Made by a program: the position numbers and the translations under genes
Notes under the pieces: generated by a model
Seen by the model: only the letters and a program-made list of their open reading frames with translations
Told to the model about the DNA's origin: nothing
The model's database searches: none
Source of the DNA: Verrucomicrobiales bacterium
GTDB taxonomy: Bacteria; Verrucomicrobiota; Verrucomicrobiia; Limisphaerales; UBA9464
Length of the DNA stretch: 64,000 nucleotides
Reading direction: 5' to 3'
Assembly: GCA_027488845.1 (NCBI GenBank)
Contig: JAIYBC010000067.1
Coordinates: 1-64,000 of the forward strand
Shown here: positions 9,762 through 63,425 of the stretch, one piece after another
How the letters are laid out: the number at the start of each line of letters is the position of its first letter
Numbering within the stretch: position 1 is the stretch's first letter

Positions 9762-10646
9762 TCAACGCTTCTTCGAACTGAATCCCCGCGGGAGGTTGGG
9801 ATTGTCGGCTCCGGTCCCGGGAGGTGTCTCGGCCACGGCCTCCTCGGCGGGTGCCGCCTCTTCCGGAATGCCCAGACGCGAACGGGCCTTCTTGGCGGCG
9901 CCGGTCTCGGGATACTCCGCGATGACGCGTTCCAGGATCGCCATCGCCTTGGCAGGCTGGTTCATCGACCCCGAATAGAGATTCGCGAGGTGGATCGCCG
10001 TCCAGCCCCACTTCTCTCGGCTCAGCCCCTTGGTAAGGACCTCCTCCAGCTCGAGGGTCGCCGCGAGTGGATTGGAGAGGTCCTTCTCGTAGATCTCCGC
10101 GATGCGGATCGCCACGTACTGCTCACGGGGATTCCTGCTGAGGTATTCGCGCATCAACGCGATGGCGTCGAGGTGGTTGCCCTTGGCCCACTCGGCCTCC
10201 GCCGCATCGTACTCGGGATCGTTCTGCGACGGGGCGTCCTCCGAGAAGACCACGCTCCCGGTGCGACGCGAGAACCACTGGGCCACCTCCCAGGCCACCA
10301 AACCGGCGAGGACCAGCATCATGCCCACAAACCCACCCAGCCATCCGAACGACTTCGATTGGGCCGGCTTGGCTTCCGGAGCCTTGGCAAGCGACGCGGC
10401 GGGCGGCGGGGCGGTCGCGGCCACCGGGGCGTTCGTGCCCGCGGACTCGGCCGAAGTCGTCGTCAACACGGTGTCGTTGGTGGTCTCCACGACCGATGGA
10501 ACCGCGGCCGTCCCATTGGCCTCCACCTCCGCCGGAACACCCCGCGAAAGCTCGGCACCCGCGTATCCGGCCCGGAACCGCTGCAGGCAATAGATCGAAC
10601 CGAGCAGCAACAGCAATGCGATGACCCCTTTGACCAGCGTGTTCAT
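9762..10646 (-). CDS. membrane protein with tetratricopeptide repeats
   Basis: This 294-residue protein starts at MNTLVKGV. The first membrane segment (about 7-20) is followed by a 75-residue Thr/Ala/Pro-rich periplasmic linker. A second membrane helix lies near 110-128 (GWLGGFVGMMLVLAGLVAWEV). The soluble C-terminal part has TPR-like helices (about 145-265: AEAEWAKGNHLDAIALMREY, ATLELEEVLTKGL, AKAMAILERVIAEYP) and a disordered acidic tail. With two helices the TPR domain should be cytoplasmic. The upstream in-frame extension of 45 codons lacks a plausible N-terminus, so I take the ATG at 10646. Distantly recalls YfgM/BamD-like TPR scaffolds, but no specific assignment is justified. Confidence 0.72.
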   Translation of the reverse strand: MNTLVKGVIALLLLLGSIYCLQRFRAGYAGAELSRGVPAEVEANGTAAVPSVVETTNDTVLTTTSAESAGTNAPVAATAPPPAASLAKAPEAKPAQSKSFGWLGGFVGMMLVLAGLVAWEVAQWFSRRTGSVVFSEDAPSQNDPEYDAAEAEWAKGNHLDAIALMREYLSRNPREQYVAIRIAEIYEKDLSNPLAATLELEEVLTKGLSREKWGWTAIHLANLYSGSMNQPAKAMAILERVIAEYPETGAAKKARSRLGIPEEAAPAEEAVAETPPGTGADNPNLPRGFSSKKR

Positions 10647-10804
10647 GAGACCTGTGACCAGACTGTTACGAAGGCACCGTTTGGGAAAGACCAAACAGCA
10701 AAGACGACGACTCGACGGGACTTCGGAGGGGGCGAGGTGGACGGTGGGATTGCAATGCGGTCGGCCTTGATCGTCCGCCATTTCCGTCGCCTAGTCGTCG
10801 CGGC

Positions 10805-12744: not shown

Positions 12745-13230
12745 ATGCTGAAATCCACCCGCAGGAGGACGTCACCGCACTCGGGCGGTCGCTTTGCGAT
12801 CGTCTGCTCGCAGTACAATCCCGAATACACCCAACCGATGTGCAAGGCCGCGGAGGCGGTTCTTGCCGCCGCGGGCGCCCGCTTCGAGGTGGTCTCCGTT
12901 CCCGGGGCCTTCGAGATCCCGGTCGCCGCCGCCGCCCTGCTCGCCCGCAAGTCGGGCAAGCCGGAGGCGGTGCTCTGCCTTGGCCTCATCCTTCAGGGCG
13001 AGACCAACCACGCGGACCACGTCGGCGAGGCGGTGACCCGGGCTCTGATGGACCTGTCGGTCCGCACGGGGATCCCGTGCATCCATGAGGTCCTGACGGT
13101 CCGGACCCGAGAGCAGGCCGAGAAGCGCTGTGTCGACGAGGACACCAATCGCGGGGCCGAGGCCGCCCACACCGGATTGCGGCTGGCGGCCACCCTGAAG
13201 TCCCTTCGCCGGGGAGCCGGAGGCCGATGA
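12745..13230 (+). CDS. ribH: 6,7-dimethyl-8-ribityllumazine synthase
   Basis: This 161-residue protein catalyses the penultimate step of riboflavin synthesis. It shows the lumazine synthase fold signatures: FAIVCSQYNPEYT (strand 1), VPGAFEIPVAAAALL, LGLILQGETNHADHVGEAV and the NRGAEAAHTGL helix near the C-terminus. The catalytic histidine is at residue 89, in ETNHADHV; many relatives read ETPHFDYV, so the aromatic residues next to it are replaced here. Members assemble into pentamers or icosahedral capsids. It starts 3 nt after purC ends and its stop overlaps the lspA start (ATGA). No other rib gene is in the window. Confidence 0.94.
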   Translation: MLKSTRRRTSPHSGGRFAIVCSQYNPEYTQPMCKAAEAVLAAAGARFEVVSVPGAFEIPVAAAALLARKSGKPEAVLCLGLILQGETNHADHVGEAVTRALMDLSVRTGIPCIHEVLTVRTREQAEKRCVDEDTNRGAEAAHTGLRLAATLKSLRRGAGGR

Positions 13231-14687: not shown

Positions 14688-14728
14688 GAAAAAAGCCCGA
14701 CAGCCTGAAAAAAGCGCCGTCGGGCTTT
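14688..14728 (-). terminator. intrinsic terminator (probably bidirectional)
   Basis: The arms aaagcccgac (14692-14701) and gtcgggcttt (14719-14728) pair perfectly over 10 bp. On the minus strand the stem is followed by six Ts, the classic form, so it should end the leftward VTC-DUF4956-HlyD transcript. It also sits 26 nt past miaA, and on the plus strand has a short T-run, so it may serve both. Confidence 0.7.
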
Positions 14729-14866: not shown

Positions 14867-16030
14867 TCACCGAGACAACCCATGCAACTCCACCAACTCT
14901 CCGGGGCGGACGACGAGATCGGTGGGCAGCGACACGAACACCGGAAGGCCCAGCTCAGCGGGAGCGTTCCCACCGCCGGCGGCATTGGCGTTTTTCGGGA
15001 GCAGGGTCGGGAACACGGGTTCCAATTGGGAGCCGACGGAAAGGATCTCCCCAACACCGGAGAGCCGACGTCCCCCGCGGCATCGCACTTCGATCTTCAT
15101 GCCGACCTTGGGATCCAGGTTCAACGGTTGGCGGACGAAGGCCACCACCCTTGTGGGCCTCTCCTTGGAGACCGTGAGGATGGCCTCTCCGGCGAGGATG
15201 GTCTCTCCGGCCTGCCGGTGGACGACGCTCACGATCCCGTCGAACGGCGCCACCAGATCCTGGGGCAGCATCTGGGCCTCCAGCAGGTCGAGGTTGCTCT
15301 CCTCCACGTTGATCGCCGCACGGACCGAGGCCGGCAGATCGCCATCGACCTTGGTCTCCGAGACGGACATCTCGCGGATGGCGGATTCGATCTCGGACAC
15401 CAGGCGGTTGAGTTCCACGACCATGGCGGAGGCGGCGTTCACGTCGCGTCGGGCAACGTCGAGGTCCGCCTGGCTGTAGATGGACCGGACAGGTCCCCCA
15501 GTGGACCCGGCGGTCCCGACGAAAAGCCGTTCGACCCGGGCCAGTTCCAACTCCGCGTAGGTCTGCTTGGCGCGGGCATCCACCAACTCCACCCGCTTCG
15601 ACATCATGTCGAGTCGGAGCTTCTCGAAGTTGATCCGCATGTTGTCCTTGCGGAGATCCGAACTGATCCCGCTGCGGATCAGGTCCATACGGGCCTTTGA
15701 GAGCGCGATCTGTGCGTCGAGCACCTTGGGTTCAACGGGGAGGACGGAGGCGATAGTCTGTCCCGCCGCGACCTTCTGAAGCGCCCCGACCTGAACTCGG
15801 AGGATGCGTCCGGAGGTGGTGCTGCCGACGATCGCGCGGACCGATTCCGCCTCACCGACCAGCGCCGAAGTGCCGACATAGCCCTTCCAGACATAGCCGG
15901 TGACCCCAACCATCACGGCGAAAAGCAGGTAGGGAACCACCGCGATCCGGAACTCCCGGAACGCGACATGGGGTGGCGTCGGAATCGGAGGCAGGACCTC
16001 GGGCGGCGACTTCTGTTTCTCGGGGTCCAT
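14867..16030 (-). CDS. HlyD-family membrane-fusion/efflux adaptor protein
   Basis: This protein has 387 residues from the ATG; a GTG two codons upstream, overlapping the previous stop, is equally possible. A proline-rich cytoplasmic N-terminus is followed by one membrane helix at about 28-48 (VVPYLLFAVMVGVTGYVW). A periplasmic adaptor follows: a lipoyl-like half (IVGSTTSGRILRVQVGALQKVAAGQTI), a long alpha-helical hairpin (about 100-230), the second lipoyl half (DLVAPFDGIVSVVHRQAGETILAGEAI) and a beta-barrel. HlyD-type adaptors join inner-membrane transporters to outer-membrane channels. Here the operon partners are a VTC polymerase and a DUF4956 membrane protein, with no ABC, MFS or RND pump, so its role may be to link or hold that complex in the periplasm. 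Confidence 0.87.
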   Translation of the reverse strand: MDPEKQKSPPEVLPPIPTPPHVAFREFRIAVVPYLLFAVMVGVTGYVWKGYVGTSALVGEAESVRAIVGSTTSGRILRVQVGALQKVAAGQTIASVLPVEPKVLDAQIALSKARMDLIRSGISSDLRKDNMRINFEKLRLDMMSKRVELVDARAKQTYAELELARVERLFVGTAGSTGGPVRSIYSQADLDVARRDVNAASAMVVELNRLVSEIESAIREMSVSETKVDGDLPASVRAAINVEESNLDLLEAQMLPQDLVAPFDGIVSVVHRQAGETILAGEAILTVSKERPTRVVAFVRQPLNLDPKVGMKIEVRCRGGRRLSGVGEILSVGSQLEPVFPTLLPKNANAAGGGNAPAELGLPVFVSLPTDLVVRPGELVELHGLSR

Positions 16031-16032
16031 GT

Positions 16033-16719
16033 TCACATCTCGGATTCGTCTTCGGCCTTGAGGCTCGTCACCCGCGAGACCCCCGGAACCGCCTTGAGTT
16101 CGGACATCAGTTCCTCCACCCGACCAGCGTCACGCAAGAGCACGCGGAAGGAGAGGTCGGCGCCTTCGGAAGCGGTGCTGACCCGCTGACTGGCCAATTG
16201 GTTCCTGCGACCATGGCGTTCCAAAAGGGCGAGCAGGCGGGGAAGTTCGTCCAGGGGTCTTCCCCAGTGGAGGTTCAACACCAGGTCGTAGCGGTGGCGG
16301 CTTCCGAACGCGGTCCAGTGCAGGTACAGCATCACCAGCGCGAAAATCACGCATCCGATGATGGCCGTGCTGTATTTCCGTGTCCCGGCCGCCATGCCGG
16401 TGGTGATGCTGGCGAGGATGTAGGTGGTGTCCAAGGTGTCCCGGAGGATGTTGCGGAACCGGACCACCGCGAAGACGGCCATCATCCCGAAGACCATCAG
16501 CAGGTTGTCGAACATCACGGCCATGACCAGGGCCACGATGGTGCAGAGGACGACCAGGGAGTTGACGAAGGACTTGGAATAGCTGAGTCCGGAATGGCAG
16601 GCCATGTACACCCAGGCGATGACATGGCCGCAGAGGAAGGCGACGAGCAACCCCAGGAGCAGCCCAGCCAGGTCGGAGGGCGCGGTTCCGAAATCTCCAC
16701 GAAACAAAAGGTCTGACAT
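16033..16719 (-). CDS. DUF4956 membrane protein
   Basis: This 228-residue protein has about four membrane helices (about 18-40, 50-70, 70-88, 118-135). The segment FGMMAVFAVVRFRNILRDT, near residue 80, is the most conserved-looking part of DUF4956. The C-terminal 90 residues form a soluble domain (LVLNLHWGRPLDELPRLLAL, ... SELKAVPGVSRVTSLKAEDE) with an ACT/ferredoxin-like pattern. DUF4956 genes commonly sit beside VTC-domain polyphosphate polymerases, as here: the VTC gene ends 6 nt upstream. No biochemical role is established to my knowledge. Its stop overlaps or nearly touches the HlyD start, so all three are coupled. Confidence 0.86.
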   Translation of the reverse strand: MSDLLFRGDFGTAPSDLAGLLLGLLVAFLCGHVIAWVYMACHSGLSYSKSFVNSLVVLCTIVALVMAVMFDNLLMVFGMMAVFAVVRFRNILRDTLDTTYILASITTGMAAGTRKYSTAIIGCVIFALVMLYLHWTAFGSRHRYDLVLNLHWGRPLDELPRLLALLERHGRRNQLASQRVSTASEGADLSFRVLLRDAGRVEELMSELKAVPGVSRVTSLKAEDESEM

Positions 16720-16725
16720 GGTGGT

Positions 16726-17580
16726 CTAGGCGGTTTGCTGGCCTCGGGAAAGGAGGGCGTTCAGCCGCTGCATCCGTTCCCTCTTCCGTTCTTCGGCCAA
16801 CTCCGGATCCCCGGGCACCGCCGTGGCCAGTCCGTTCCGGTAGAAATACGCTTCCCCCTTGCGTGCGACACCGTCGGCGTACTTCGAAGCGGACGCCTGC
16901 CGAAGTCCGAAGATCCGGACCATCTCGGCGAACCAGTCGGGGAAACGGCCCGTGAACTTCAGCTCCAAGATCACAATCGGACCGAAAACCGAGGTCGGCG
17001 CATCCATCTCCGCGGTGAACCGGCTGGTGAACTCGGGGGAGATCAGGACGTTCCGGTCGAAGGTCACGCGGACGGAATTGTCATGGGGGCTGATCCAGGC
17101 TTCCCGTTCGTAGTACACGTGGGCCACGGGACCGCTGCGCGTGTCGTTCATCAGCTCGACGAAACGCTGGATCGCCACCACCTGGCGGACATCGTCCTTC
17201 ACCAGCTCCGAGGTATGCGGGATCTGCCCTGCGAGGACCGACTCCACCGCGTGGCGCTTCACGCCGCCCCGCTGCTTCATGATCGCCTCGTTCATCCGAC
17301 GCTTGATCTCGAAGAAGATCGGTGAACCGGGACTGTCCTCATAGAACCGGATCCGCAGCTTGTAGCGGTTCTTGTTGCCGTTGATCGTCCCCCAGTAGAT
17401 CCGGAGATCGTCCGAATCCAGGTAGAGGTTGTGGATGGTGTACGAGAGGTTCGGACGGCCGACACCGTACTCGTCCAACTCCAGGTAGTTGGACACGAAG
17501 TCACGCAGCGCCAGCGCCAGTTCCTCGGGCACGAGGTACTTCAGCTCCCACCGCTGCAACTGCATGTTGTCGCCCGACAT
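16726..17580 (-). CDS. VTC-domain polyphosphate polymerase-like protein
   Basis: This 284-residue protein consists of one VTC domain, the tunnel-shaped fold that in yeast Vtc4 makes polyphosphate from ATP. Expected basic and acidic tunnel residues are present: K14 in RWELKYLV, R76/R78 in NRYKLRIRFYE, E91/K93 in FFEIKRR, R176 in VTFDRNV, and E206/K208 in VILELKF. No SPX domain or membrane segment exists, so membrane attachment probably comes through DUF4956. It is the first gene of a three-gene leftward operon. An alternative is triphosphate hydrolysis (CYTH-like tunnel fold), but the VTC motif set fits better. The C-terminus (about 255-284) is a charged helix. Confidence 0.87.
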   Translation of the reverse strand: MSGDNMQLQRWELKYLVPEELALALRDFVSNYLELDEYGVGRPNLSYTIHNLYLDSDDLRIYWGTINGNKNRYKLRIRFYEDSPGSPIFFEIKRRMNEAIMKQRGGVKRHAVESVLAGQIPHTSELVKDDVRQVVAIQRFVELMNDTRSGPVAHVYYEREAWISPHDNSVRVTFDRNVLISPEFTSRFTAEMDAPTSVFGPIVILELKFTGRFPDWFAEMVRIFGLRQASASKYADGVARKGEAYFYRNGLATAVPGDPELAEERKRERMQRLNALLSRGQQTA

Positions 17581-61355: not shown

Positions 61356-63425
61356 GTGAACCATCGATTCCTGATCACAGGCCTGGCATTGGCCACCGCG
61401 GGATCCCTCCACGCGGCGGCCCCGAAGAAGAGTTCCGAACTCTTTCAACTCGAGACGGTTTGGGATGCGACCCTGACATTCACCACGGAGAACTGGAAAG
61501 CCATCCAACCTCCCAACGGGAACTTCGGTCCGCCGGGATTCCCAGGTCCGGGAGGCGGAAACCGCGGACCAGGGCGGCCGGAAGGACCTTCGGGCCGCGG
61601 ACCCGGTGGAGGGAACCAAGGCGGACCCGGCGGGCCGGTGATGTTTGGCCCCGGCAACTTCCTGGCAGGCGGCTTCATGACCGCCATGGACGCCGACAAG
61701 GACGGCGCGTTGACCCGGAAGGAGTTCCAGGACGCCTTCGGTCGGTGGTTCACCGAATGGGACACCACCAAGGGCGGAGCCTTGGACATCGAGTCGATCC
61801 GGGGCGGGCTGAACCGCGCTCTCATGGTTGACGGCCGTCCCGGCGGACCGGGCGGACCGGGCGGCGGTGCCGGCGGACCGGGTTTCGGACTCCAAGGCCA
61901 GGCGGGCGGTCGAAACGGAATGAGCGCCGCCAGCGGGATCCACTTCGAGTACGTCGAGGCCGGACTGAACTTCGACGGCACCGAACTCCCGAAGGTCGCC
62001 GTCCGCTACAAGGGCAACGGCACCTACATGGACTCCCGGATGAGCGACAAGAAGTCGCTGAAGGTCGACCTGAACGAGTTCACCAAGAAGCAGAAGGTCG
62101 GCGACGTCACCAAGCTGAACTTCCACAACAACACCACCGACGGGGGCTGGATGAACGAGCCCCTGGCCCACCAACTCTACCGCGACGCCGGCGTTCCCGC
62201 CCCGCGTTCCAGCTACGCCCGCGTCCGGATCAACGTCCCCGGCACCTGGACCAACCACTACCTCGGTCTGTACTCGATCGTCGAGAACCCCGACCAGAAC
62301 TGGGCCGAGGACCGCTTCGGCACGAAGAAGGGGCTCATCCTCAAGCCGGTCACCCGCGAGCCGTTCAAATACCAAGGGGACGACTGGGAGACCTACCGGC
62401 AGGCGTACGACCCGAAGACCGAGGTCACGGACGCCCAGAAGCGGCGCTTCCTCGAACTGGCCCGCCTCGTGACCAACGGCGGCGAGGCCGACTTCGCGGC
62501 GAAGATCGGCGACTACATCGACCTCGACGAGTTCGCCCGTTTCCTGGCGGTGACCGTCTGGCTCAGCAACACCGACTCCATCCTGATGGTGGGACAGAAC
62601 TACGTGGTCTACCTGCATCCGGAGACCCAACGGTTCCAGTTCGTGCCCTGGGACCTCGACCGGGCCTTCGGCAACTTCTTCAACCCGTCGCCCGAGGAGA
62701 TGTCGATCACCCAGGCTTGGGCGCCCGACAACCGGTTCCTGGAGCGGATGATGAAGGTCGACGCCTTCCGGAAGCTCTACTTGGCCAAGATGGGCGAGTT
62801 CCAGAAGACGATCTTCCGTCCCGAGCGCCTCGCTGGTCAGGTGGACGCCCTGGCGAAGGCCCTGAGACCCGCTGTCGTCGAGGAAGGCGCGGACAAGGCT
62901 GAGCGCTTCGACAGGATCGTGGCTGGCCAACGTCCGGAAAACGGCGGTCCCGGCTTCGGCGGTCCCGGAGGACGGGGCGGATTCCGCATGCCGTCCGCGC
63001 CACCCATCAAGGCCTTCGCCAAGGCGCGTCACCAGTCGGTCGGCGACCAACTGGCGGGCCGGTCCGAGGGCGTCCCGCTCTCCGGCGGATTCGGCGGCCC
63101 AGGCGGTGGACGCCGCGGGCCCGGTGGCGGCCCCGGCCGTCCGGGTGGTCCGGGTGGTCCGGGTGGTCCGGGTGGTCCGGGTGGTCCGGGTGGTCCGGGT
63201 GGTCCGGGTGACATGGGGCCCGGCAACTTCATCGCCCCGGTCTTCCTGAAGTCGGCGGACACCAACGGGGATGCAAAGGTCCAGAAGACCGAGTTCGAAG
63301 CCCTCGCGGAGGGGTGGTTCCGCCGGTTCGACCGGAAGGCTGCCGGCAAGCTCAGCCAGGACGACCTGGTCCAGGGCTTGAACGCGGTGATCCCGCCACC
63401 CGACTTCGGTCCTCCCGGGGGCTGA
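61356..63425 (+). CDS. CotH-kinase family protein with EF-hands and collagen-like segments
   Basis: This 689-residue protein starts at GTG, with a signal peptide (GLALATAGSLHA). A Gly/Pro-rich segment (about 52-95) is followed by an EF-hand-like loop MDADKDGALTRKEF near 110-123. The CotH domain (about 195-515) has SLKVDLNEFTKK, LNFHNNTTDGGWMNEPLAHQ, YLGLYSIVENPDQNW, KKGLILKP and the metal-site VPWDLDRAFGNFF. CotH proteins are atypical secreted protein kinases, first known from spore coats. A second Gly/Pro region encoded by perfect 9-nt repeats and an EF-type loop SADTNGDAKVQKTEF precede the C-terminus. CotH, VTC and DUF4956 genes often co-occur; the latter two lie 44 kb away here. Confidence 0.9.
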   Translation: MNHRFLITGLALATAGSLHAAAPKKSSELFQLETVWDATLTFTTENWKAIQPPNGNFGPPGFPGPGGGNRGPGRPEGPSGRGPGGGNQGGPGGPVMFGPGNFLAGGFMTAMDADKDGALTRKEFQDAFGRWFTEWDTTKGGALDIESIRGGLNRALMVDGRPGGPGGPGGGAGGPGFGLQGQAGGRNGMSAASGIHFEYVEAGLNFDGTELPKVAVRYKGNGTYMDSRMSDKKSLKVDLNEFTKKQKVGDVTKLNFHNNTTDGGWMNEPLAHQLYRDAGVPAPRSSYARVRINVPGTWTNHYLGLYSIVENPDQNWAEDRFGTKKGLILKPVTREPFKYQGDDWETYRQAYDPKTEVTDAQKRRFLELARLVTNGGEADFAAKIGDYIDLDEFARFLAVTVWLSNTDSILMVGQNYVVYLHPETQRFQFVPWDLDRAFGNFFNPSPEEMSITQAWAPDNRFLERMMKVDAFRKLYLAKMGEFQKTIFRPERLAGQVDALAKALRPAVVEEGADKAERFDRIVAGQRPENGGPGFGGPGGRGGFRMPSAPPIKAFAKARHQSVGDQLAGRSEGVPLSGGFGGPGGGRRGPGGGPGRPGGPGGPGGPGGPGGPGGPGGPGDMGPGNFIAPVFLKSADTNGDAKVQKTEFEALAEGWFRRFDRKAAGKLSQDDLVQGLNAVIPPPDFGPPGG
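63147..63209 (+). repeat. seven perfect 9-nt repeats (ggtccgggt) inside the CotH gene
   Basis: Seven identical units encode Gly-Pro-Gly triplets in frame, preceded by a partial, slightly different unit. Because 9 is a multiple of 3, gain or loss of units by slippage would change only the length of the collagen-like linker, not the frame. The identical codon choice in every unit points to recent expansion. Confidence 0.95.

Follow-up and report, generated by a model that had tools for sequence, protein, structure and literature searches.

A leftward operon in the window (the whole 64,000-nucleotide stretch of DNA analysed) joins a VTC-domain protein, a DUF4956 membrane protein and a HlyD-type adaptor, and this gene order recurs across Verrucomicrobiota, making the conserved VTC-DUF4956-HlyD unit a candidate route for polyphosphate synthesis and export. 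Bacterial polyphosphate has mostly been studied as a cytosolic PPK product, and its route to the cell surface is poorly understood. The unit gives DUF4956 a testable role, that of a membrane channel partner, and suggests a reason for which bacterial VTC genes track CotH kinases. VTC–DUF4956–CotH groups are already known; a search of the literature on VTC plus DUF4956, bacterial CotH plus VTC, and surface polyphosphate export turned up no account of a form that includes HlyD, in agreement with the initial annotation, which had known of no described system of this composition.

Architecture of the Locus

The operon comprises (i) the VTC-domain gene (16726-17580, minus strand; 284 aa; Pfam VTC, 1.8e-41), (ii) the DUF4956 gene (16033-16719, minus strand; 228 aa; Pfam DUF4956, 1.3e-8), and (iii) the gene of the HlyD-type adaptor (14867-16036, minus strand; 389 aa; Pfam HlyD_3, 8e-10), each domain match lying over its cut-off. 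All three genes run leftward. VTC is separated from DUF4956 by 6 nt, and DUF4956 and HlyD share 4 nt, the latter starting at a GTG that is followed 6 nt further on by an in-frame ATG. An intrinsic terminator hairpin with a T run (14689-14728, minus strand), recognised from the sequence and its RNA fold, lies about 140 nt past the HlyD stop, between the operon and the convergent miaA. The hairpin is the perfect pair AAAGCCCGAC/GTCGGGCTTTTTT (about 14728-14689), the region bearing it shows an RNA folding z of -3.4, and it was missed by a pattern scan because its loop exceeds 8 nt. The three leftward genes, the gaps of 6 nt or less and the terminator of the initial annotation were verified by the coordinates and the hairpin, with the qualification that the latter is symmetric, has T runs on both strands and also suits miaA, and is therefore not exclusive to the VTC-DUF4956-HlyD unit. 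No Rfam element was found between positions 13000 and 19000 of the window.

On one side of the operon lie the unrelated housekeeping genes miaA, lspA, ribH, and purC, and beyond its opposite end genes for PSCyt/DUF1592 and DUF1549/1553 proteins, in a genome that lies near Pedosphaeraceae MAGs (Verrucomicrobiota). The early claim that no transporter ATPase, RND or MFS pump is encoded here holds for the ten genes flanking the operon, among which no ABC, RND, or MFS gene was found; in addition, no such pump gene was seen at a conserved position in relatives, and the adaptor encoded together with its pump, as in tripartite efflux or type I secretion, was not found at the locus.

Conservation of the Gene Order

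The genome survey covered one phylum, Verrucomicrobiota, by means of a sample of the window's order and a phylum-wide draw of 195 genomes. VTC was present in 36 of the 195, and 21 of these 36, the window's genome included, carry VTC>DUF4956>HlyD, inside as well as outside the window's class; the arrangement is near-universal in genomes of the same family and is found in further families of that order too. HlyD lies directly 3′ of DUF4956 in 40 of 45 DUF4956-bearing relatives from the order, plus about 20 more VTC-bearing genomes phylum-wide, bearing out the expectation that HlyD is a conserved third gene beside VTC and DUF4956, the failure of which had been set beforehand as a refutation. In the other five, HlyD is divergent and adjoins VTC (L068 and L084), stands at a distance of about 1.4 kb (L087), or is missing (two relatives). 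DUF4956-HlyD junctions measure 20 nt or less in 51 of the 55 examined, which argues that the arrangement is not due to chance. A hitchhiking HlyD gene was considered as well and is strongly disfavoured by the survey.

Where VTC stands elsewhere in the genome, DUF4956 and HlyD are still paired (6/6; G029, G043, G045, G046, G050, and G053), which ties the adaptor to DUF4956 rather than to VTC; DUF4956-HlyD is a more stable pair than the linkage to VTC, and all six genomes retain a VTC gene. At loci L069-L083, VTC has no adjoining DUF4956, and the DUF4956-HlyD pair was seen on another contig or at another place in six genomes examined.

A second operon type of the same phylum (L127-L138, L177-L181) comprises VTC, DUF4956, and CotH, the latter often of 600-1050 aa, without HlyD; CotH stands after or before the VTC-DUF4956 pair, and some genomes hold both types. 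Upstream of a HlyD-less VTC-DUF4956 pair, L019:378-4997 encodes a protein of 1539 aa that combines a CotH domain with three stretches of lamin-tail domain. HlyD or DUF4956 frames look shifted or split at L007:7558-8769, L106:4294-4990, and L107:2856-4147, which may reflect assembly errors or decay.

The VTC Protein

The VTC protein is soluble, with a single Pfam domain, no SPX, and no hydrophobic segment, so that neither the SPX nor the own transmembrane domain of a eukaryotic-type catalytic subunit was found in its 284 aa. A profile of its relatives matches the structure of yeast Vtc4 (3g3q) with an E value of 3.6e-8. In the strong segment of this match R76, R78, K93, K102, Y157, R159, and R171 are tunnel residues, whose Vtc4 partners, numbered by offset counting, are R264, R266, K281, K294, Y359, R361, and R373; in a weak second segment E206, K208, S232, and K233 are aligned, by the same counting, with E426, K428, S457, and K458. 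The tunnel residues that had first been noticed in the sequence alone thus align to Vtc4 and are invariant across 15 aligned sequences, save S232, which is not listed as invariant, and the protein displays both the basic tunnel residues and the metal-binding Glu of a VTC (TTM) polymerase. Vtc4 is inactivated by mutating R264, R266, and E426 (PMC9911596). On these sequence features, the window VTC is a putative polyphosphate-type polymerase.

The DUF4956 Protein

The match to the DUF4956 family (PF16316) reaches 35.2 bits against a cut-off of 30.6, and sequence search found no homologue of known structure. Structure models of DUF4956 and HlyD, both of modest confidence, were built on 16-19 related sequences; that of DUF4956 (AlphaFold, pLDDT 66) displays five predicted transmembrane helices within residues 17-136 and a C-terminal domain (about 140-222) modelled as β-α-β-β-α-β, an ACT/ferredoxin-like topology. 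A fold search with residues 140-228 retrieved ACT, NikR, and S6 folds at Z about 10, the fold being a common one. A resemblance of the protein to MgtC (transmembrane part plus ACT) was considered as well; MgtC was not listed by the fold search, the query being the ACT-like part only. All 86 homologues compared, among them proteins from Bacteroidota, Actinomycetota, Bacillota, and Pseudomonadota, share an invariant R87-F88-R89.

DUF4956 was also observed in other surroundings, including (i) pSymA of Sinorhizobium meliloti (L120:5260-7630), where it directly follows a caspase-domain (Peptidase_C14) gene and no VTC, HlyD, or CotH was recognised nearby, and (ii) a Hymenobacter plasmid (L116:6920-9003), where it is followed by a TolC-family gene and no VTC was recognised nearby. 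Since it can stand apart from VTC, in one case next to a caspase-like gene, DUF4956 may serve more than one system as a general membrane module.

The HlyD-Type Adaptor

The adaptor model (pLDDT 64.5) comprises one transmembrane segment (22-54), a barrel-sandwich domain, a long helical hairpin, and a β-barrel, the complete membrane-fusion architecture of HlyD/MFP adaptors, in keeping with the lipoyl and hairpin parts that had been called intact from the letters. The nearest solved structures are E. coli HlyD (5c22), MacA, LipC, and AcrA, at modest Z values of 8-9, and TIGR00998 (EmrA-like) matches at 1.8e-14, below its cut-off. The window's subfamily conserves a cytosolic PIPxPxxxxFREFR segment. 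The hairpin tip carries R-x3-L...S, the pattern of TolC-docking adaptors, in a tip loop that is longer and variable in the window's family; judged by these residues, the tip looks like that of TolC-docking adaptors. No TolC gene was found within the operon in the Verrucomicrobiota loci surveyed; the window's genome holds 23 OEP/TolC domain matches.

In the tree, the operon adaptors form a family apart from the other adaptors of the same genomes, with two well-supported subfamilies. Counting the displaced adaptors of L068, L084, and L087 as background, a single clade was rejected (AU 3.8e-5); with these three put in the family and ten long background rows dropped, it was not rejected (AU 0.72). 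The grouping was altered after the first tree had been seen, so a single origin of the adaptor is not established, nor, with the displaced members counted in, rejected. No HlyD relative was found in plasmid records at 1e-8.

Association with CotH Kinases

The window encodes a CotH-kinase-family protein (61356-63425, plus strand; 689 aa; Pfam CotH, 3.3e-53) with an apparent signal peptide, an EF-hand, and long Gly/Pro-rich stretches. Its gene lies 44 kb away from the operon, no CotH being adjacent to VTC-DUF4956 in the window, and the window's genome holds 20 matches to CotH. Across the 195-genome phylum draw, CotH occurs in 34 of the 36 genomes with VTC and in 11 of the 159 without (Fisher 5e-26), a count in which kinship is allowed for only through a family-level tally (25 families with VTC, 25 with CotH, and 23 with both). 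CotH is linked to VTC by genome-wide co-occurrence, not by position. Among close relatives, a protein search found VTC in none of the seven CotH-less genomes; one of these seven, G032, has a diverged VTC-DUF4956 pair that only a broader profile found, and the exclusion therefore covers window-type VTC only. PPK1 is present in 55 of 59 relatives; ordinary polyphosphate synthesis is thus already covered, and VTC is not the sole polyphosphate-type enzyme. The co-occurrence of VTC and DUF4956, often with CotH, which had been put forward as known, is upheld by the VTC/DUF4956/CotH gene group of Gram-positive pel loci (PMC7112168).

Proposed Mechanism and Alternatives

In the yeast VTC complex, polyphosphate is made in the cytosol and threaded through a transmembrane channel lined by basic residues (PMC9911596), and the MexA-like domain of Alg44 has been suggested to form a bridge across the periplasm (PMC3815931). 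By analogy, the operon may encode a membrane-coupled synthase of a polyphosphate-like polymer, as in yeast VTC, together with an Alg44-like export adaptor; this is the likeliest of the readings considered, one for which our confidence and our doubt are about evenly balanced. The cytosolic VTC enzyme, to judge from its intact Vtc4-type tunnel, would add ATP-derived phosphates to the growing polyphosphate-like chain; DUF4956 would stand in for the transmembrane part of eukaryotic VTC and carry the emerging chain through the inner membrane, its invariant arginine cluster being part of what would be a five-helix chain-passing membrane protein and its ACT-like domain possibly sensing a ligand; and the HlyD adaptor, anchored beside DUF4956, would guide the chain onward across the periplasm, towards a TolC-type channel whose gene lies outside the operon. 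The TolC gene beside DUF4956 in Hymenobacter and the TolC homologues of the window's genome agree with such an outer-membrane exit. The Gram-positive VTC-DUF4956-CotH sets, and some Verrucomicrobiota loci that have no HlyD, indicate that the adaptor is not universally needed.

Going by co-occurrence, the polymer output probably serves secreted CotH-family proteins. It is conceivable, though rather doubtful, that polyphosphate exported by VTC, DUF4956, and HlyD is the phosphoryl donor of secreted CotH kinases, or is attached by CotH to surface proteins, outside the cytoplasm, in a setting poor in ATP; the ATP source of CotH kinases on the spore has been termed an unanswered question (PMC7821199). 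If true, this would amount to a phosphate-polymer-fuelled extracellular phosphorylation serving the about 20 CotH proteins of the window's genome.

The operon is without a TolC gene, monoderm relatives have retained VTC-DUF4956-CotH but no adaptor (PMC7112168), and CotH occupies the third slot at some loci, all of which would suit a polymer made or held in the periplasm with no export, HlyD acting as a scaffold by which DUF4956/VTC would be tethered to partners that are secreted or belong to the cell wall, e.g., CotH. We consider this unlikely, but to be reckoned with, as the adaptor still has the hairpin, and at its tip the motif, typical of adaptors that dock to TolC, and DUF4956 adjoins TolC in Hymenobacter. 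It appears unlikely that VTC is a hydrolase or a ligand-binding TTM protein regulating DUF4956, with DUF4956 and HlyD transporting or sensing something else: the tunnel residues match Vtc4, including E206/K208 for E426/K428, and are invariant, and VTC is encoded elsewhere in all six genomes in which the DUF4956-HlyD pair stands apart from it. On the other side stand the occurrence of DUF4956-HlyD without adjoining VTC, the ACT-like domain of DUF4956, and the diverse activities of TTM folds (PMC4641920). That HlyD is an ordinary efflux adaptor, a chance neighbour without functional tie, as the large size of HlyD families and the 21 HlyD_3 matches in the window's genome might suggest, is highly improbable in view of its slot, strand, and tight spacing conserved phylum-wide, the separateness of the operon adaptors from the other adaptors of the same genomes, the persistence of DUF4956-HlyD without VTC, and the absence of a pump gene nearby.

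Comparison with Known Systems

Read as a polymer synthase coupled to an export adaptor, the unit resembles parts of several known systems. Like the TolC-dependent HlyD, EmrA, and MacA adaptors, the window protein comprises a transmembrane anchor, a barrel-sandwich domain, an α-hairpin with the tip motif, and a β-barrel, whereas its partner is DUF4956 and no ABC, MFS, or RND protein, and its tip loop is longer and variable. Alg8–Alg44 likewise combines an inner-membrane polymer synthase with an MFP-like periplasmic protein and no pump (PMC3815931), but makes a polysaccharide, has PilZ in Alg44, and has its outer part formed by AlgK/AlgE. Neither a channel nor a TPR partner of this kind was found within the operon or among the genes next to it, convergent housekeeping genes separating a TPR-repeat gene (9765-10781) from the operon, and the likeness to Alg8/Alg44 is an analogy of mechanism only.

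The Gram-positive pel accessory set cotH–PPP(VTC)–DUF4956–DUF4832 (PMC7112168) shares the placement of VTC beside DUF4956 and the link to CotH; in contrast, the window has HlyD as the third gene and CotH elsewhere in about 20 copies, has neither pel genes nor DUF4832 adjoining the operon, and belongs to a diderm host. Compared to the eukaryotic VTC complex (Vtc4/Vtc1/Vtc3), the window unit has no SPX, divides the catalytic and membrane parts between separate proteins, employs DUF4956 as the membrane part in place of the three-helix VTC transmembrane domain, and adds a HlyD adaptor in a bacterial envelope and not a vacuole; nevertheless, both have a TTM/VTC catalytic domain whose tunnel residues agree and, in the mechanism proposed here, would share cytosolic synthesis coupled to a membrane channel (PMC9911596).
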